Assembly (NCBI GenBank): GCA_017504165.1
Contig: JAFVRR010000012.1
Location: 62,001 to 126,000 of the forward strand
Source: Clostridia bacterium
GTDB taxonomy: Bacteria > Bacillota > Clostridia > Christensenellales > Borkfalkiaceae
DNA: 64,000 nt
Reading direction: 5' to 3'
Shown: in pieces, positions 7,720-47,817 of the stretch
Layout: each line of letters starts with the position of its first letter
Position numbering within the stretch: the stretch's first letter is position 1
Program-made: the position numbers and the translations under genes
Notes under the pieces: model-generated
Told to the model about the DNA's origin: nothing
The model's database searches: none
Seen by the model: the letters and a program-made list of their open reading frames with translations, nothing else

Positions 7720-10389
7720 TTATTTTTTAATTTCTTCAATAACGTAGCATTCAATGAAGTCCCCGATTTTAATATCGTTGAAGTTTTCAATCGACATACC
7801 ACATTCATAACCTTGTTGTACTTCTTTAACGTCGTCTTTGAAACGTTTAAGTTGCATAACGTTTCCTTCACAAATCATAATATCGTCACGGTAAATTCTA
7901 AGTTTGCCTGAACGCGCAATCTTACCTTCGGTAACGTAACAACCCGCAACAGTACCAACGTTAGAAATTTTAAAGGTTTCTCTAACTTCCGCTTTACCAA
8001 GGTAAACTTCGTTATAAGTAGGTTTAAGCATACCTTTAAGCGCTTTTTTAATATCTTCAATCGCCTCGTAAATAACCCTATAAAGTTTAACGTCAATCTT
8101 AGATTGTTCTGCAAGTGATTTTGCTTTACTATCAGGTCTTACGTTAAAGCCGATAATGATAGAGTTAGAAGAATCCGCAAGGCTTACGTCCGTTTCGGAA
8201 ATAGCGCCTACGGCAGCGTGAATAACGTTAACTTTAACTTCTTCGTTAGAAAGTTCAATAAGCGATTGTTTAACCGCTTCAACCGAACCTTGAACGTCCG
8301 CCTTAACGATAACGTTAAGGTTTTTAAGATCGCCCGAAGACACTTTAGAGAATAAGTCGTCAAGAGAAACTTTTTGTTGCTCTCTTATCATATCTTCTCT
8401 TTCCTTGTTCTTTCTTTCGCTAGCAACAAGCGCCATAAGTTTCGCTTCTTCTACCGCAAAGATAGAATCGCCCGCATTTGGCACTGCTTCTAAGCCTAAA
8501 ACGGATACTGGGATTGATGGACCTGCAGTTTTTACGTTTCTACCCTTATCGTCAATCATAGCCCTTACTTTACCTGTAATAGTACCAGCAACGAGATAAT
8601 CGCCAACTTTTAAAGTACCGCTTTGAACGAGTACCGTAGCAACAGGACCTTTACCTTTATCGAGTTTTGCTTCGACGATAACGCCTTTAGCCATACGGTC
8701 AGGATTTGCTTTTAATTCTTTAATTTCAGCAGATAAGATAATAGTTTCAAGTAATGCGTCGATACCTAAGCCCGTTTTAGCGGAAACTGGAACGAGCGCA
8801 ACGTCGCCACCCCATTCTTCTACTAAAATTTCTTGGTCGGCAAGACCTTTTTTAACCCTTTCTAAATCCGCAGTAGGTTTATCAATTTTGTTTGCAGCGA
8901 TAATTATAGTAACCCCCGCCGCTTTAGCGTGGTGGATTGCCTCAATCGTTTGTGGCATAATACCATCGTCCGCCGCAACTACGATTACTGCAATATCGGT
9001 AAGTTGAGCACCACGAGCACGCATTGCGGTAAACGCCGCGTGACCAGGAGTGTCAAGGAAGGTAATTTGTTCGCCGTTTATAGATACCGTGTAAGCGCCG
9101 ATATGTTGAGTAATACCGCCCGCCTCGCCCGCGGTAACGTTAGCGTTTCTAATTTTATCAAGAAGTGAAGTTTTACCGTGGTCAACGTGACCCATAACCG
9201 TAACGACAGGTGGACGTTTGATAAGTTTTGTTTCGTCTTCTTCCGATTCGTTAAAGCCTTCAGTCAACACGTCTTCCGCAGTTTTATCGAGTTTAAGTTC
9301 AAGTTCAATGCCAAGACCAGCCGCAATAAAGCCTGCAGTATCGTAGTCGATTGAGTCGTTAATAGTCTTTAAAATACCTTCTTTAAATAAAATTTTAGTA
9401 ATTTCAATCGCTTGAATACCGATAAGTTCGCAAAGTTCTTTAATAGGAATAATTTCCTTAGTGATAACCGCCTTTTCAATTTTAATAGTGTTTTGCTTTT
9501 CTTCTTGGCGTTTATCTTTAGCCTTACGAACTTTTCTGTAACCCGTCTTATCTTCATCAAAGTCGTCAAGCGATACTTGACCTTTAATTAAAGATTTTTT
9601 ATTGATTGCTTTTTTATCTTCATAATTATTCTTTTCGTTATTTTTCTTTTTATTATTAAGTTTAGAGTTTTCCTTTGGAATAAATACTTGTGGAGCGTCT
9701 TTTATAGCGCTAAAAGGCTTTTTATCGCCCGCTGGCTTATTGCCGTTAAACTCGCGCTTTTTGTCCCCTTCAAACGGTTTTTTATCACCCTTGTTGAAAG
9801 GTTTCTTTTCGCCTTGTTGTCTAGGTTTTTTATCGCCGTCTTTATTGATAAATTCCCTTTGCTTGTTTTGTGGAATAAATACCCTTTTACCGTCAACTAT
9901 AAAAATATTAGGGTTAGCGGTCTTTTCAATAACGGGTGTCTTAGGAGCAGTTTCCGTAGGTTTTTCTTCCACTTTTTCTTCTTGTGGTTTAACTTCTACT
10001 TTAACTTCTTCCTTTTTAGAAGTAGGTTCTTTAACCTTTTCTTCCGCTTTAACTTCAACAGTTTCAGTAGGTTTATCTTCTTCCGCCTTTTCTTCTACTT
10101 TTACCTCGGCAGTTTCTACTACTTTAACTTCTTCCGTTTTAACTTCTTTAGGAACTTCAACGGTCTCTACAACCTTAACTTCTTCTTGAACTTCAACTAC
10201 TTCTTCTTGTTTTGCCTTTTCTTCTTTTTTAACCAACGCTAAAAGGCGGGCTTTCTCAGTAATCTTTTTAGATACGCCCTTAATTATAGATTTAGTTTCG
10301 TTTAACGCGGAGATATGCGCGCCTTCTTTGTATAAATTATTTATAATTTTAATATTTTCAAAATTGTCTTTCTTTTCTTCTACACCCAT
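7720..10389 (-). CDS. infB: Translation initiation factor IF-2
   Basis: IF-2 is the GTPase that places initiator tRNA on the 30S subunit and promotes subunit joining. The G domain starts at about residue 399 ([14 protein letters not shown]), followed by [18 protein letters not shown] and [10 protein letters not shown]2N, domain II and the C-terminal tRNA-binding domain ([25 protein letters not shown]) are present. At 889 residues it is longer than Bacillus IF-2 (716). The extra length is a low-complexity N-terminus (about 55-300), first built of repeated Val-Glu-Lys-Thr blocks, then Lys/Asp/Gly-rich. The ATG overlaps the ylxQ stop (TAATG). Confidence 0.97.
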
Positions 10390-10981: not shown

Positions 10982-12094
10982 TTATTCGGTAATTTCATCT
11001 ATAATATCATCAAGTTCAGGGATTTCTTCAAATCCTTCTTCTAAAGCCATTTCTTCAAGGGCCTTAGACTCGCTCTTCACGTCGATTTTCCAACCTGTAA
11101 GTTTAGCGGCAAGTCTAGCGTTTTGACCGTCTTTACCAATAGCAAGTGAAAGTTTATCGTCAGGAACGACAACCCTACAAGACTTTTCGTCAATAGCAGT
11201 AACCCTTAATACTTTTGCAGGAGCAAGCGCCCTAGCAATGAATTCAAGTGGGTTTTCAGACCAAGGAATAATATCGATTTTTTCACCGCCAAGTTGTTCG
11301 ATAACGGCGTTAACACGCATACCTTTGTTACCAACGCAAGCGCCAACTGCATCGATTTGTGGGTCTTCGCTATAGATTGCGATTTTACTTCTTTGACCCG
11401 CTTCACGAGAAACGGCTTTAACTACTACGATACCTTGTTTAATTTCTGGTACTTCGTTTTCAAAAAATCTTGTAACCAAACCAACTGCAGTACGAGAAAC
11501 TAAAACTTGAGTAGTTCTACCCATGTTTCTAATCTTTTTAACGTAAACGGTAATTTTATCGTTGATTTCGTATTTTTCACCTGCAATTTGGTCTTGTGGA
11601 AGCATTACGCCTTCAAGTCCGCCACCTGCAAGTTCAACGTAAACGTTGCCGTTTTCTACGCGTCTTACTATTGCGGTATGGATTTCGTTTTCCTTATCTT
11701 CAAATTCTTGAATAGTGTTAACCCTTTCCGCTTCCCTTATCTTTTGCATAACTACTTGCTTTGCAGTTTGAGCGGCAATTCTGCCAAATTCCTTTGGAAC
11801 GAATTCCCTTTCAAAAGTATCGCCAAGTTTATAACTTTTTTTGTAAGTTTTCGCTTCTTCTAAAGTGATTTCTTTATTAGGGTCTTCAACCACTTCAACT
11901 ATCGCCTTGCAAGCGTAGAATTTAATAGTACACTTTTCTTCGTTGTATTTAATAACCACGTCGCTAGCATCACCCGCGTATTTTTTATACGCAGAAGTTA
12001 AAGCGTTTTGTAAAGTGTCTAAAAATGCTTGTCTTTCTATGCCTTTTGAAAGACAAAGTTCGTTAAGAGCGGCAAAAAAATCTTTATTTGTCAT
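10982..12094 (-). CDS. nusA: Transcription termination/antitermination protein NusA
   Basis: NusA binds RNA polymerase and modulates pausing and termination. The order is an N-terminal polymerase-binding domain (1-125), S1 domain (TAIVRRVENGNVYVELAGGG, about 135-200), KH1 (SEDPQIDAVGACVGNKGMRVNAVIEQLGGEKID) and KH2 (PDDKLSLAIGKDGQNARLAAKLTGW). At 370 residues it is the short Gram-positive form without the acidic repeats of Escherichia coli. AAGGAG precedes the ATG. The gene stands in the conserved rimP-nusA-ylxR-ylxQ-infB order. Confidence 0.97.
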   Translation of the reverse strand: MTNKDFFAALNELCLSKGIERQAFLDTLQNALTSAYKKYAGDASDVVIKYNEEKCTIKFYACKAIVEVVEDPNKEITLEEAKTYKKSYKLGDTFEREFVPKEFGRIAAQTAKQVVMQKIREAERVNTIQEFEDKENEIHTAIVRRVENGNVYVELAGGGLEGVMLPQDQIAGEKYEINDKITVYVKKIRNMGRTTQVLVSRTAVGLVTRFFENEVPEIKQGIVVVKAVSREAGQRSKIAIYSEDPQIDAVGACVGNKGMRVNAVIEQLGGEKIDIIPWSENPLEFIARALAPAKVLRVTAIDEKSCRVVVPDDKLSLAIGKDGQNARLAAKLTGWKIDVKSESKALEEMALEEGFEEIPELDDIIDEITE

Positions 12095-12125: not shown

Positions 12126-12584
12126 TTAATTAAATATTATTGCTTCGTTAATTTTTGCGATTCTAGTCATTGGAATTTTAATTTCTTTTCCATTAACTTC
12201 AATCGTCACGCTACCCCCGTCGTACGCTTTTAAAACACCTTCAAAGTATTTAGCGCCGTTCATTGGAGCGTAAAGTTTTACTTCCACCATCTTATCAATC
12301 CTTTTAAGAAAGTCCCTTTCAGTTTTGAAAGGTCTGTCAAGACCGGGGCTAGAAACGTTTAAAGTGTACGGATTAGGGTACGGATCAAACACGTCAAGCG
12401 GGTCGGATATTAAATTGTGAAAGGCTTCGCAACTATCAAGGTCAACACCGCCGTCTTTATCGATATATACGGTAAGCGCGGGGTTTTTAGACATTTTGAA
12501 AGTTACTTCTACGATTTCAAGCCCCAAACTTTCCGCGTACGGCGTTAAAAAGGCTTGTATTTCTTGAGCGGGTTTTGCTTTCAT
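12126..12584 (-). CDS. rimP: Ribosome maturation factor RimP
   Basis: RimP helps assemble the 30S subunit. Family motifs are AESLGLEIVEVTFKMSKNPALTVYIDKDGGVDLDSCEAF and NVSSPGLDRPFKTERDFLKRI. I place the start at the ATG at 12584, which has AGGAGA just upstream. The upstream in-frame ATG at 12605 would add seven residues made from that ribosome binding site region. It is the first gene after the PolC-type exonuclease and probably the first of a unit with its own promoter (12666-12694). Confidence 0.92.
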   Translation of the reverse strand: MKAKPAQEIQAFLTPYAESLGLEIVEVTFKMSKNPALTVYIDKDGGVDLDSCEAFHNLISDPLDVFDPYPNPYTLNVSSPGLDRPFKTERDFLKRIDKMVEVKLYAPMNGAKYFEGVLKAYDGGSVTIEVNGKEIKIPMTRIAKINEAIIFN

Positions 12585-12612
12585 TTCTCTCCTATTTCCT
12601 TGCATAAAGAAA

Positions 12613-12711: not shown

Positions 12712-14250
12712 TTAAATATCTTTTAAACTTTTCTTACCCTTTAAAAGTTCTAAGAACATTTCCGCAGTCGCCATCGCGTCGGATAACGCCCTATGGTGAT
12801 TAAAAGTAATGTTAAAATGCTCGCACACGGTGTTTAATTTATGGTTTTTAAGCCCTGGCAAAATCTTTCTTGATAAATACAAGGTATCTAAAGTTTTGTT
12901 TTTCATAATATAGCCAAGTTCCTTGCCCGCGTTGTATAAAAACCTAAAGTCAAACTCTGCGTTATGCGCAACGAATACGGTGTTTTCAACAAACTTAAAA
13001 AAGTCGGGATACACTTCGCTAATTTTAGGGCTATCTTTTACAAGTTCGTCGTCAATGCCCGTAAGTTCTACAATTCTATCGGAAATATGTACTTCGGGGT
13101 TGACTAAAGTGTGATAATACTCGGTTATAACCCCGTTTTCTATCTTAACGCCCGCAATTTCCGTAATTTTATCGTAAGCAGTTTCCGTGCCCGTAGTTTC
13201 TATATCTACGACGGTAAATACGCCTTCTTGAACTTCTATAGGCAACCCTTTATCAATCGTAAAAAAGTCGCTTTGCCTTGCGCTTTCTATCTTTTTAGGG
13301 AAAATTAAACTGTAATTATCGGGCGCTTTAAGCGAAGGTTTTTCCTTTGGTTTAAAATTAGCGGGATACTCGCATAAATGCAAGCCTTTTATATTATAAC
13401 TTATCGCGCCGTTAAAACTTTCGTTCTCGCCACGCATAATAATTACGCTACCAACGTCGATTTTTTCAAGTTTTTTTAGTTTGTTTTTGTCAGCGGTGAA
13501 AAATCTTCCCGTAACTTTTGCCGTTTGATCGTCGACCGTTATAACGAAATAAGGTTTGCCGTTTTTCGTTGCCTTTTCCGTCTTTTCTACTACGACGCCC
13601 GCAAAAAATACCGTGCCTAATTTTTCCAAACCGTCTTGAATATACATTGCAGTATCGTAAACGGTATCGTCAATAAGTTTATAAACGCTTTGCATTTTAA
13701 CGTAGCGCAAAGTTGAATCTTCAAGTTCAAGGTAATTTAAACTCTCTTCTTCGTAAGTTGGCGCTTCCGTTTTTTCTTGAACGATTTTTATACTTCCGAC
13801 AAACTCGTGCGCGTAAGACCTTGAAAGGCTTTCGATAAGTTTACTCATTTCAGAAGTCCTTTCAAAATAATCGTTGATATTTTCCGTTAAATTAAGTTCA
13901 AAAACGACGCGCTTATTGACGGATATTACGTTGACCGTTTCGTCTGTTATCATATGAGAAATATGAAAAGACCTAGTTTTAATCTTTTCGATTATAACCT
14001 TTTTGGCAAGGTCTTTATCAACCACCGATTTTGCAACCGATAACGTTATATCATTAACGCCGTCAAGCCTATCTTTTAGCGTTTTTAATATGTAATTTTT
14101 ACCCTCGACTGAAACTGCAATATCGCTTATTGCATCGACGTGTAAAGAGTTTTGGTCTTGATAATAAACCGCCCCCTTTAAGCGTAAATCTCCAAGCGTT
14201 TCATCTTGCGATTTTAAAGTTTCAAATAAGACGTCACAAGCGTTTTTCAA
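12712..14250 (-). CDS. PolC-type N-terminal domain plus DEDDh 3-prime exonuclease, no polymerase domain
   Basis: The gene stands where Firmicutes carry polC (ispG-polC-rimP). Residues 1-190 resemble PolC domains I/II and about 195-310 form the OB fold (LGTVFFAGVVVEKTEKATKNGKPYFVITV). From about 345 a complete DEDDh exonuclease follows: FTVVDIETTGTETAYDKI, VAHNAEFDFRFL, NHKLNTVCEHF, HHRALSDAMATAEMF. It then ends at 512 residues, against about 1440 in PolC. The PHP segment that normally surrounds the exonuclease and the whole polymerase core are absent. Only 106 bases separate its stop from rimP, so the polymerase part is deleted, not frameshifted. It is probably a proofreading or repair exonuclease. 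The start is a TTG overlapping the ispG end by 17 bases. Confidence 0.85.
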   Translation of the reverse strand: MKNACDVLFETLKSQDETLGDLRLKGAVYYQDQNSLHVDAISDIAVSVEGKNYILKTLKDRLDGVNDITLSVAKSVVDKDLAKKVIIEKIKTRSFHISHMITDETVNVISVNKRVVFELNLTENINDYFERTSEMSKLIESLSRSYAHEFVGSIKIVQEKTEAPTYEEESLNYLELEDSTLRYVKMQSVYKLIDDTVYDTAMYIQDGLEKLGTVFFAGVVVEKTEKATKNGKPYFVITVDDQTAKVTGRFFTADKNKLKKLEKIDVGSVIIMRGENESFNGAISYNIKGLHLCEYPANFKPKEKPSLKAPDNYSLIFPKKIESARQSDFFTIDKGLPIEVQEGVFTVVDIETTGTETAYDKITEIAGVKIENGVITEYYHTLVNPEVHISDRIVELTGIDDELVKDSPKISEVYPDFFKFVENTVFVAHNAEFDFRFLYNAGKELGYIMKNKTLDTLYLSRKILPGLKNHKLNTVCEHFNITFNHHRALSDAMATAEMFLELLKGKKSLKDI

Positions 14251-15280
14251 TTTCTTTAATTTCCTTAATAAATTCTTCTTCTGCTAAGTTAAAAGGCACT
14301 TTTTTATAAACTTCGCCCTTTTTAAATATTACGCAAAAATCCTTACTGCCCGCAATTCCAAGATCGCAGTCTTTCGCTTCGCCTGGTCCGTTGACAACAC
14401 ACCCCATAACGGCGATTTTTATAGGTTTTTTAATATCTTTCGTCAAGTATTCAACCCTTTCGGCAAGCCCGATAGAATCATACTCCGTCCTACCGCAAGT
14501 TGGGCAAGACACAACTTCTACGTAGTCCTTTTCAAGTCCTACCCCGCGGAGTATTTTTTTAGCGACGATAGGCTCTTTAATAGGGTCTGCAGTTAAACTA
14601 ACGCGTATTGTATCGCCTATGCCTTTTAAAAGTAACGAGCCGATACCTATACTACTTTTTACGATACCGTTTTCGTACGTTCCCGCCTCGGTTACGCCTA
14701 CGTGAAGAGGATAACTAGTTTTAGTAGACAAATATTCATACGCTTTTACCGTCAAGTTAACGTCGCTAGCCTTTGTTGAAATAACTATATTTTCAACGCC
14801 GTATTTTTCAAGAGCGTAAACGTTTTTTAAAGCGCTTTCCACAAGCGAAATTTCATTTTTGCCGTATTTAGCCAAAAATTCCTTTTCAATACTTCCCGTA
14901 TTAGAACCAACCCTTACCGGAATATTGTATTCCTTTAAACAGTCCGCCACCTTTTTAATATTCTCTTCACTGCCGATATTTCCAGGGTTTATTCTAACTT
15001 TATCAACGCCGTTTTCAATAGATTTTATAGCCAAGCGATAGTCGAAATGAATATCTGCAACAAGTGGAACTTGCACCCTACTTTTTATACTTTTTAAGGC
15101 TATAGCGTCCTTTTCATCTTTTACGGCAAGCCTAACGATATCGCAACCGTTATCCGCTAAAAGATTGATTTGCGAAACCACTTCGTCTATTTTTTCAGTT
15201 TTGATATTAGTCATAGACTGTACGGCAACCCTTTCACCACCACCGATAAAAAGATTGCCTATTTTTACCTTTTTCGTCAA
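14234..15280 (-). CDS. ispG: 4-hydroxy-3-methylbut-2-enyl diphosphate synthase
   Basis: IspG (GcpE) makes HMBPP from MEcPP in the non-mevalonate isoprenoid pathway, using a [4Fe-4S] cluster. The TIM-barrel half starts IGGGERVAVQSMTNIKTEK. The cluster half contains VSCPTCGRTEYD and AVMGCVVNGPGEAKDCDLGIAG, which supply the cysteine ligands. At 348 residues it is the usual bacterial size. Its ATG overlaps the coaX stop (ATGA) and its end overlaps the exonuclease gene, so it lies inside a tight operon. Confidence 0.96.
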   Translation of the reverse strand: MTKKVKIGNLFIGGGERVAVQSMTNIKTEKIDEVVSQINLLADNGCDIVRLAVKDEKDAIALKSIKSRVQVPLVADIHFDYRLAIKSIENGVDKVRINPGNIGSEENIKKVADCLKEYNIPVRVGSNTGSIEKEFLAKYGKNEISLVESALKNVYALEKYGVENIVISTKASDVNLTVKAYEYLSTKTSYPLHVGVTEAGTYENGIVKSSIGIGSLLLKGIGDTIRVSLTADPIKEPIVAKKILRGVGLEKDYVEVVSCPTCGRTEYDSIGLAERVEYLTKDIKKPIKIAVMGCVVNGPGEAKDCDLGIAGSKDFCVIFKKGEVYKKVPFNLAEEEFIKEIKEIEKRL

Positions 15281-44238: not shown

Positions 44239-47200
44239 TTAAGATTCTATATAAGAAATCTCACTTTCGTCTAATATTGATAGTAATTCGCTCATAAGCC
44301 CCCTACAATTTCTAATTTTGAAGTTGAGCCTTAACTTTTTACCACCCTTTATAACGTATACGAATACGTCGCCCGGGTATCCCGATAGAATATCGAACAA
44401 ATCGTCGAAAGTATCTAAATTATCACCCTTAATTACAAGGTAGCATTTCTTTTCTTCAACTACTTCGTAATTTTCTTCTTTATCTTTAATAGGCGTACAT
44501 TTATCAATAGAAACACTAACGCCGTGCCCGTCGCGAATTTGAATTCTACCGCTAATTTTAACAACCGCGTCTTCTTCAATTTCGTTTCTTAACTTTTCGT
44601 AAACTTTAGGGAACATTACACATTCTATCACGCCGTACATATCTTCTACGGTAAGCGACGCCATAAATTGCCCCGATTTTGTGGCAATTTTTTTAATCGC
44701 CGTTATAATACCGCCAAATTCTACGTATTCGCCCTCTTTTACGTCGGTATAGGTAATATCTCCGTTTTCGTCTTCTTCCGTACTTAAAAGTTTCAAAGTG
44801 CTAAACTTAAAGTCTTTAAAGTCGTTTTCATAGTCTGATAGTGGGTGACCAGAAACGTATACGCCGATAACGCTCTTTTCGTACGAAAGTTTAGTTTTCG
44901 TATCGTATTCTTTTAAGTTAGGATATTTTACTTCAATTGTCTTAGGTATATCAAAATCATCCCAAAAAGTGCCTTGAATTCCGTTGTCTTTGCAAAGTGC
45001 TTGCGCTTTATCTAAAACTTCTTCATAAACTGCAATAAGTCTTGACCTAAACACGTTAAAGCAATCGAAAGCGCCCGCGAAAATAAGGTTTTCAACAAGC
45101 CTTTTATTCGTGTATTTAGCAGTACGCAATGCAAAGTCTTCAAGCGATAAGAACTTGCCGTTCTTTTCACGCTCTGAAATAATTTCGTCAATAACCGCTA
45201 TACCTACACCCTTAACTGCCGCTAAGCCAAACCTAATTTTACCGTCTTTAACCGAAAAGCCCGTTTTACTTTCGTTAATATCTGGTGGAAGTACGGGAAT
45301 TTTTTCTTCTTTTGCGTAAGAAACGTAGTTGGTTATTTCTTCAATTTTAGTTATACGGTTATTGAGTACCGCAGTTAAAAATTCAGGTCTATAATAAGTT
45401 TTTAAGTATGCCGTTTGATAGGTTACAAGAGAATATGCCGCCGCGTGCGATTTATTAAAGGCGTATTTAGCAAAGTCTTTCATTTCATTCCAAACCGCCC
45501 TTGCAACGTCTTCAGGTACACCCCTTTTAACGCAACCGTCAATACCTTTTATAACTTTGCCGTTTTGGTCCACGCTTTCAGGTTTACCGAAGATAAAGGT
45601 CTTTTCTTCCTTTATCATTTCTTCAACCTTCTTTTTACCCATCATACGCCTTACCATATCCGCTTGACCAAGGGTATAACCCGCCAAATCTTGAACTATT
45701 CTCATAACTTGTTCTTGGTAAACGATACAGCCGTAAGTTTGCTTTAAAATAGGCTCTAAAAGTGGGTGAGCAAAGGTAACTTTTTCAGGGTTGTGCTTAT
45801 TTTCTATAAACCTAGGAATAGAATCCATAGGACCAGGACGATAAAGCGACACCGCTGCCACGATATCTTCTAAACAGTTTGGTTTTAACTTAGATAAGAA
45901 GTCTTTAAAACCACTTGATTCTATTTGGAAAATAGCGGTAGTGTTACCGGAAGAAATAAGGTCGTAAACCCCTTTATCGTCGTAGCCGTTTCTATCAAAA
46001 ACGACGTCGACGCCATGGTTTTCTTTAACGTATTCGATACAAAGTTTAATATCGGATAAGTTTCGTAAACCTAAAAAGTCCATTTTTAAAAAGCCAAGGT
46101 GCTCAAGTTCCGTGCCCACGTATTGCGAAGTGATATCGTCGCCGTTTCTAGAAAGTGGCATATGCCTATCAAGGATATCCGCGCCGATAATTACACCGCA
46201 CGCGTGCGTACTTGCTTGACGTGGCATATCTTCAAGTTTCATAGCAATATCGACAACACGCCTAATATCGCTACTTTCCGCGTATAATTCTACAAGTTCA
46301 GGAACGGAAAAGTCCGTTTTCCCGTCTTTAATTTCCTTTTCATTCGGTTCGTAAAAGCCGAATACTTTTTCTAATATGTTTGGCCTACCAATATCGACAG
46401 TAACCCCTTTTTTAACGACTTTATTAGGGATTGATTTGGTAATTTTATCACATTCCGAGTATGGAATATCAAGCGCCCTACCAACGTCTTTTATGGCGTT
46501 TTTAGCCGCCATAGTACCAAAGGTAATAATTTTAGCAACGCTATCTTCGCCGTATTTTTGGCGTACGTACTCTATAACTTCGGGTCTACGCGAATCTTCA
46601 AAGTCAATATCAAAGTCGGGCGCGGAAACACGCTCTGAATTTAAAAATCTTTCAAAGTAAAGGTCGTATTTAAGTGGGTCAATATCCGTAATATTGATAA
46701 GATACGCAACGATAGAGCCCGCGCCACTACCACGGCCAGGGCCTACCGAAATACCCATTTTTCTCGCAGCGTTAATATAGTCCCAAACGATTAAATAGTA
46801 TTCGATAAAGCCTTGCTTTTCAATAACTGAAAGTTCCATTTCAATACGGTCACGAATTTCTTTAGTTTCTTCGCCGTATTTAAGTTTAATACCTTCGTTA
46901 ATTAAATCCCTAATATATTCAATAGGCGTTTGCCCCGTTTCGGGAATATAATGCGGGAACATATAATTGCCGTAAACGAACTCAAAATTACATTTTTCGG
47001 CAATTTCAAGAGTATTTTTTAACGCATCTAAATCATCGGGGAAGGCTTTTGCCATTTCGTCGTACGATTTTAAGTAAAACTCATCGCACGGCATTTTCAT
47101 ACGATTAAGGTCGGTTACCTTTTTACCCGTTTGCACGCACATTAAAACGTCGTGTGGTTCGGCATCGTCTTTATTTACGTAGTGTACGTCGTTAGTAGCA

Positions 47201-47817
47201 ACTAGTTTAACTTTGTATTTTTTAGCGTAAACTTTAAGTTGCGCGTTGACGTATTCTTGCTCTTCAAGACCGTGGTTTTGTATTTCAAAATAAAAATCTT
47301 CTTTAAAAGTATCGATAAAAAACTCGATTAACTCTTCCGCCTTTTTAAAGTCGTGGCGAAGAATTGCTTGCGGAATATCGCCACCGATACAAGCGGATAA
47401 ACAAACCAACCCCTCGCTATGCTCTTTTACCGTTTTAAGGTCTACCCTTGGTTTGTAATAAAAACCGTCACGAAAGGCAATAGCGTTAAGTAAACACAAG
47501 TTTTTATAGCCCGTTTCATCTTTAGCAAGAAGAACTAAATGTCGTCTATCGTTATAGCCGTCAACGTCGTCAGTTTTAATTTTACCTTTTACCCTTAAAT
47601 CGTCGCAAACGTAAAATTCCGTACCGAAAATAGGCTTAATACCCACCTTTTTACAAGTATCGAAAAACTGTACCGCGCCGTACATATTGCCGTGGTCAGT
47701 CATAGCGATTGCAGGCATATTTAAACTTTTAGCCTTTTTAACAACGCTTGATATTTTAGCCATACCGTCAAGTATTGAATATTCGGTATGCAAATGTAAA
47801 TGAACAAATTCTTCCAT
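44239..47817 (-). CDS. dnaE: DNA polymerase III alpha subunit, DnaE type
   Basis: The PHP domain keeps its metal-site residues (VHLHLHTEYSILDGM, TDHGNMYG, GTEFYVCDD, LSACIGGD, TNDVHYVN). The polymerase core has GPGRGSGAGSIVAYL and the catalytic SAPDFDIDFED. It is followed by PASTHACGV, the little finger, the HhH region (AVKGVGIAVIDEI) and an OB domain (VEFGGIITAIKKIATKSGQFMASLTVED). At 1192 residues it has DnaE1/DnaE3 length with all parts present. It lies between hemW and pfkA. With no polymerase in the polC-position gene, this may be the main replicase, which is inference. Confidence 0.95.
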   Translation of the reverse strand: MEEFVHLHLHTEYSILDGMAKISSVVKKAKSLNMPAIAMTDHGNMYGAVQFFDTCKKVGIKPIFGTEFYVCDDLRVKGKIKTDDVDGYNDRRHLVLLAKDETGYKNLCLLNAIAFRDGFYYKPRVDLKTVKEHSEGLVCLSACIGGDIPQAILRHDFKKAEELIEFFIDTFKEDFYFEIQNHGLEEQEYVNAQLKVYAKKYKVKLVATNDVHYVNKDDAEPHDVLMCVQTGKKVTDLNRMKMPCDEFYLKSYDEMAKAFPDDLDALKNTLEIAEKCNFEFVYGNYMFPHYIPETGQTPIEYIRDLINEGIKLKYGEETKEIRDRIEMELSVIEKQGFIEYYLIVWDYINAARKMGISVGPGRGSGAGSIVAYLINITDIDPLKYDLYFERFLNSERVSAPDFDIDFEDSRRPEVIEYVRQKYGEDSVAKIITFGTMAAKNAIKDVGRALDIPYSECDKITKSIPNKVVKKGVTVDIGRPNILEKVFGFYEPNEKEIKDGKTDFSVPELVELYAESSDIRRVVDIAMKLEDMPRQASTHACGVIIGADILDRHMPLSRNGDDITSQYVGTELEHLGFLKMDFLGLRNLSDIKLCIEYVKENHGVDVVFDRNGYDDKGVYDLISSGNTTAIFQIESSGFKDFLSKLKPNCLEDIVAAVSLYRPGPMDSIPRFIENKHNPEKVTFAHPLLEPILKQTYGCIVYQEQVMRIVQDLAGYTLGQADMVRRMMGKKKVEEMIKEEKTFIFGKPESVDQNGKVIKGIDGCVKRGVPEDVARAVWNEMKDFAKYAFNKSHAAAYSLVTYQTAYLKTYYRPEFLTAVLNNRITKIEEITNYVSYAKEEKIPVLPPDINESKTGFSVKDGKIRFGLAAVKGVGIAVIDEIISEREKNGKFLSLEDFALRTAKYTNKRLVENLIFAGAFDCFNVFRSRLIAVYEEVLDKAQALCKDNGIQGTFWDDFDIPKTIEVKYPNLKEYDTKTKLSYEKSVIGVYVSGHPLSDYENDFKDFKFSTLKLLSTEEDENGDITYTDVKEGEYVEFGGIITAIKKIATKSGQFMASLTVEDMYGVIECVMFPKVYEKLRNEIEEDAVVKISGRIQIRDGHGVSVSIDKCTPIKDKEENYEVVEEKKCYLVIKGDNLDTFDDLFDILSGYPGDVFVYVIKGGKKLRLNFKIRNCRGLMSELLSILDESEISYIES

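Follow-up and report, generated by a model that had tools for sequence, protein, structure and literature searches.

Why would a bacterium keep, in the place of polC, a gene that encodes the exonuclease of this replicative polymerase and none of its polymerase? The question arises from a 64,000-nucleotide stretch of a Clostridia bacterium genome (hereafter, the window), for which an earlier note, made from sequence alone, proposed that DnaE had become the main replicase and that a remnant of PolC serves as a separate proofreading subunit. Such a subunit is also the best reading that we can offer for the window protein, with its contact with DnaE and its role in the cell predicted from sequence.

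Results

The gene (12712..14250, minus strand) starts with TTG and encodes a protein of 512 amino acids. Specifically, a PolC-type N-terminal domain (residues 1-160; 13771..14250, minus strand), recognized with hhalign against the N-terminal domains of full-length PolC, is followed by an OB fold (residues 216-287; 13390..13605, minus strand; PF01336, E 1e-6), a clamp-binding-like pentapeptide, QSDFF, in the OB-to-exonuclease linker (residues 326-330; 13261..13275, minus strand), and a DEDDh exonuclease domain (residues 345-504; 12739..13218, minus strand; PF00929, E 2e-38, and Foldseek), beyond which the protein extends for only about 10 residues. The OB fold (216-287) and RNase_T (347-499) were the sole Pfam matches, with no match to the PHP and polymerase models PF07733, PF17657, and PF02811. 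The four catalytic acids and the histidine that the earlier note had read in the exonuclease are all there (D349, E351, D434, H486, and D491), and the AlphaFold2 model of the protein has a mean pLDDT of 90, falling to 68 around the clamp-like motif, in keeping with a flexible stretch. Upstream, the start codon lies 17 bases within the 3' end of ispG (14234..15280, minus strand), giving a 17-base overlap; downstream, the ORF coordinates bear out the 106 bases previously reported between the stop codon and rimP (12126..12605, minus strand), which is followed by nusA (10982-12094) and infB (7720-10389).

This slot, ispG-X-rimP-nusA-infB, is common to the remnants and to the full-length PolC of their order-mates. 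In NCBIfam, the window protein matches PolC best, over the exonuclease stretch (NF001688, positions 418-587, E 7e-52), at a score of 176 against a PolC cut-off of 873. The part preceding the exonuclease aligned with the PolC N-terminal domain and OB fold over 286 colinear columns (hhalign probability 99.7, E 2e-25), and the N-terminal domain aligned with PolC on its own as well (98.1, E 1e-13; reversed control, 0.1). The best PDB match of the model in Foldseek was E. faecium PolC (9qpc); the nuclease fold also resembles DinG and ExoX in the structure search, and the whole-protein search, dominated by the exonuclease, assigned no PDB fold to the N-terminal domain. In the exonuclease tree, the remnants adjoin the exonucleases of PolC, with weak deep support. 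Synteny and N-terminal homology rule out a convergent OB-exonuclease protein unrelated to PolC. Alignment with PolC families, a check proposed at the outset, found all three parts homologous to PolC and, together with the position at the polC locus, confirms at the sequence level what the earlier note had claimed, that the gene is a PolC descendant, here without the PHP domain and the polymerase. The claim that the PHP insert and the polymerase core are gone holds insofar as both are absent, but it is the exonuclease that is inserted within the PHP domain of PolC, and the loss therefore comprises both PHP halves and the polymerase. Aligned with full PolC, the remnants end just after the exonuclease and also lack the first PHP half.

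Within the window genome (1.84 Mb, 94.7% complete), the single C-family polymerase core is the DnaE of the window (44239..47817, minus strand), which is complete and carries the full PHP site HHDHEHCDH, as first described. A search of this genome for a full-length PolC elsewhere, or for a second polymerase core, found neither, and full PolC was absent in all 36 of the same-family relatives searched. With DnaE as the sole C-family replicase and PolC missing from genome and clade alike, the proposal that DnaE is the main replicase stands. The polymerase-core model gave a single DnaE-type replicase in each of the 28 genomes without PolC, out of 36 (one adds a marginal second match), and two C-family polymerases in each of the 8 with PolC. 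One genome with a nuclease-dead remnant (L289, G104:C105) has a second, divergent C-family polymerase match in an open frame of 802 amino acids.

Across the order, PolC was present in 122 and absent in 273 of 395 genomes of at least 90% completeness, and, among the matches listed, this split tracks families. A DnaE tree of 38 genomes places those without PolC on one side of one branch (support 100), requiring one change. Further, a search of 293 genomes drawn from the class met the separate N-terminal-OB-exonuclease form in this order alone; outside it, the top matches were to full PolC. A syntenic remnant also occurs in a record of Candidatus Coproplasma stercoripullorum (L106), a genus placed in GTDB Christensenellales, Borkfalkiaceae (PMC8035907); the order with mixed PolC presence is probably Christensenellales, and the window probably comes from it as well. 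From these distributions, the loss of PolC is ancient and probably happened once, at the root of a large group of gut Clostridia. Remnants were recovered in the contig scan by an alignment query, while a single-protein query matched nothing. The genomes of family f26, represented by L246 (G061), measure 0.8-1.4 Mb at an estimated completeness of 96-100%, suggesting reduced lineages.

The linker between OB fold and exonuclease, the site at which the first PHP half was deleted, carries a motif of the form Q-x-x-hydrophobic-F/L, represented by QSDFF in the window and by QTDMF, QADLF, QASLF, and QMNLF in other remnants. In an alignment of 37 sequences, 28 place it at the same column, against 2 at the runner-up column; of the 69 nuclease-intact remnants, 59 have it at one column, for which shuffled linkers average 2.8. 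Several genera from the window's own family carry V or E instead of the Gln. The clamp-binding consensus is QxxLF, of which PolC has a copy at its C terminus (PMC12309361), and the C termini of full PolC carry QxSLF-type motifs. Having lost that C-terminal motif, the remnant thus seems to have gained a putative clamp-binding motif anew, in the linker, through which it may bind the clamp. That the motif substitutes for one missing from DnaE is ruled out clade-wide, most DnaE having a QxSLF-type motif of their own. The window DnaE has a degenerate version, QGTFW (44962-44976), where DnaE of the same genus have QISLF or QISMF.

The PHP site HHDHEHCDH was intact in all 48 DnaE examined, from lineages with intact and with nuclease-dead remnants alike, so a second proofreader would be dispensable. 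Among the window DnaE and L184-L210, the Lys-Pro that contacts epsilon in E. coli is present in the window, and genomes with PolC conserve its Pro; in the clade, many DnaE have KY, KA, QA, or KS instead, so binding of the E. coli epsilon type is doubtful. The window genome also encodes, outside the window, a second DEDDh exonuclease of 300 amino acids (L093, G000:C18, 1004-1906, plus strand), with a C-terminal FtsK-gamma-like winged helix that falls under the Pfam cut-off. Its exonuclease branches within the remnants from other genera in the exonuclease tree, so the protein may be a copied-out remnant domain.

The closest pairs of remnants differ by a dN of about 0.14 and a dS of 1.6-1.8 (NG86), a ratio that is approximate because dS is high. 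With dN so far under dS, the remnant is, as judged from these comparisons, under purifying selection, in agreement with the first reading of a product kept by selection. Fourfold-site AT skew across ispG-rimP-nusA-infB, taken irrespective of orientation to the fork, averages -0.18 in genomes with PolC and -0.29 in those without, with too wide a spread to set the two groups apart.

Discussion

Our results suggest that the remnant of polC is quite probably a clamp-tethered subunit of the replisome that proofreads for DnaE1 in trans. In the scenario we favor, one ancestral deletion would have removed both PHP halves and the entire polymerase core. The N-terminal domain, for which contact with the clamp loader is proposed in PolC (PMC3919608), would tether what was left to the fork, together with the OB fold and the gained pentapeptide. 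The DEDDh nuclease would then excise DnaE1 misincorporations in trans, much as in Bacillus subtilis, where the nuclease of PolC is reported to proofread DnaE in trans within a stable complex (PMC5627055). If the clostridial ancestor edited DnaE1 through PolC in this way, what remained after deletion of the polymerase would still function in editing, and the linker motif would restore its grip on the clamp.

The argument of the earlier note, that the catalytic residues are present and the gene was hence kept for proofreading, is incomplete, as three lineages keep the gene without them. Catalytic residues were all retained in 69 of the 84 remnant sequences examined and lost in family f16, in most of family f19, and in genus g84 of family f29, where at most the first Asp is left. 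These nuclease-dead proteins, of 485-551 amino acids, still occupy the polC locus, and, with the exonuclease part left out, their tree requires three state changes, with intact relatives lying within f19 and f29. Their dead nuclease domains are conserved about as well as the rest of the protein (70% versus 65% and 58% versus 47%), the predicted structure of one copy still matches the exonucleases of PolC and DnaQ, and four genomes with a dead remnant contain no RNase_T exonuclease at all. In such lineages, proofreading can be carried by the PHP site of DnaE. Given that the nuclease died in three lineages and the protein was kept, a further structural role is indicated; specifically, the sequences suggest that a function other than editing also retains the gene, most simply the scaffolding of DnaE1, either at the clamp loader or on single strands.

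Taken to its limit, this reasoning would make the remnant a structural adaptor that, by way of its N-terminal domain and OB fold, connects DnaE1 with the clamp, with the clamp loader, or with single-stranded DNA, and whose exonuclease is secondary and dispensable. The three losses at a retained locus, the conserved dead domain with its fold, and the four genomes that have a dead remnant and no RNase_T exonuclease all speak for this alternative, yet most of the remnants examined retain the full catalytic set, and the dead copies have mostly lost the terminal Phe of the clamp-like motif, so that clamp contact seems to accompany nuclease activity. We therefore hold an adaptor of this sort to be unlikely, although it is the strongest competitor to in-trans proofreading. 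The dead but retained remnants, considered with the intact PHP site of DnaE, indicate that proofreading is probably the usual role of the remnant and not the sole reason for its retention. Several genomes of f29 and f19 (L271, L272, L273, L277, and similar), with intact or dead remnants, also encode a separate remnant-like exonuclease of about 200 amino acids, possibly a duplication or a replacement of the editing function.

Alternatively, the remnant could have left the fork to act as a general exonuclease in recombination and repair, in the manner of DEDDh enzymes of the DinG or ExoX type. The resemblance of its nuclease to those folds fits this explanation, as do the repair types to which the other DEDDh proteins in these genomes belong. 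However, a repair enzyme accounts poorly for the retained N-terminal domain and OB fold of PolC, the clamp-like motif, and the position in a core operon. Further, remnants persist in near-complete genomes of only 0.8-1.3 Mb, two of which, when checked, had no other RNase_T exonuclease; the remnant is the sole exonuclease of that type in 5 of 28 genomes (G043, G053, G059, G061, and G110), including the complete 0.9-Mb genome G061. We thus consider this alternative improbable. Still harder to sustain is the view that a stand-alone N-terminal-OB-exonuclease protein predated PolC. Deep branches in the remnant tree might be taken as primitive, but the restriction of the separate form to this order among the 293 genomes searched across the class, and the grouping of the PolC-less genomes as one set among PolC-bearing relatives, make this a very slight prospect. 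Finally, despite the large deletion relative to PolC, a decaying pseudogene or assembly artefact is refuted by the comparative data, and carries next to no weight, given that dozens of independent genomes and accessions, from about 15 families, share one architecture and that dN is far lower than dS.

Thus, proofreading in trans by a tethered PolC remnant remains the reading that we prefer, and it fits a broader history that we consider reasonably likely, in which a replicative polymerase, an enzyme among the most highly conserved in the cell, would have become a non-polymerase subunit of the replisome in one event at the root of a clade spanning many families, gained a clamp motif, and, in at least three descendants, turned into a dead structural pseudo-exonuclease beside DnaE1. 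By descent, the remnant shares with PolC its locus, N-terminal domain, OB fold, and DEDDh exonuclease, and it differs in lacking the PHP domain, the polymerase, and the C-terminal clamp motif, with a clamp-like motif between OB fold and exonuclease instead. As a separate DEDDh exonuclease with a clamp-type motif beside a single DnaE1, it resembles DnaQ (epsilon) of E. coli Pol III, from which it differs in its independent derivation from PolC, its N-terminal domain and OB fold, a motif that precedes rather than follows the exonuclease, and the lack of a C-terminal DnaE-binding tail. The mycobacterial non-canonical DnaQ (PMC12926913) is likewise a DEDDh exonuclease beside a DnaE1 with an intact PHP site. 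Its domain layout, however, is unlike that of the remnant. Nor is it known to derive from PolC.

Deviations from the standard PolC architecture have been noted in Clostridia before, in that some clostridial PolC lack the exonuclease insert (PMC3919608); these are the mirror image of the remnant, with the polymerase kept and the exonuclease lost. The same survey lists Clostridia with DnaE1 alone and raises the question of whether normal replication requires PolC when DnaE1 is complete, and PMC12926913 gives three polymerase combinations. Our searches of the open-access literature found no description of a PolC remnant of this kind.

Clostridia have two large replicases, PolC and DnaE1, and this clade constitutes a natural experiment on them, in which the polymerase of one was dropped and its front end kept. 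This suggests that PolC can give up DNA synthesis more readily than the functions it has at the fork apart from polymerization. In this clade, proofreading in trans could be tested directly, as could the function of the N-terminal domain of PolC, which is poorly understood, and the three nuclease-dead lineages would make structural and catalytic roles separable. Because the target is absent, its members are predicted to be insensitive to inhibitors of the PolC polymerase, such as ibezapolstat.
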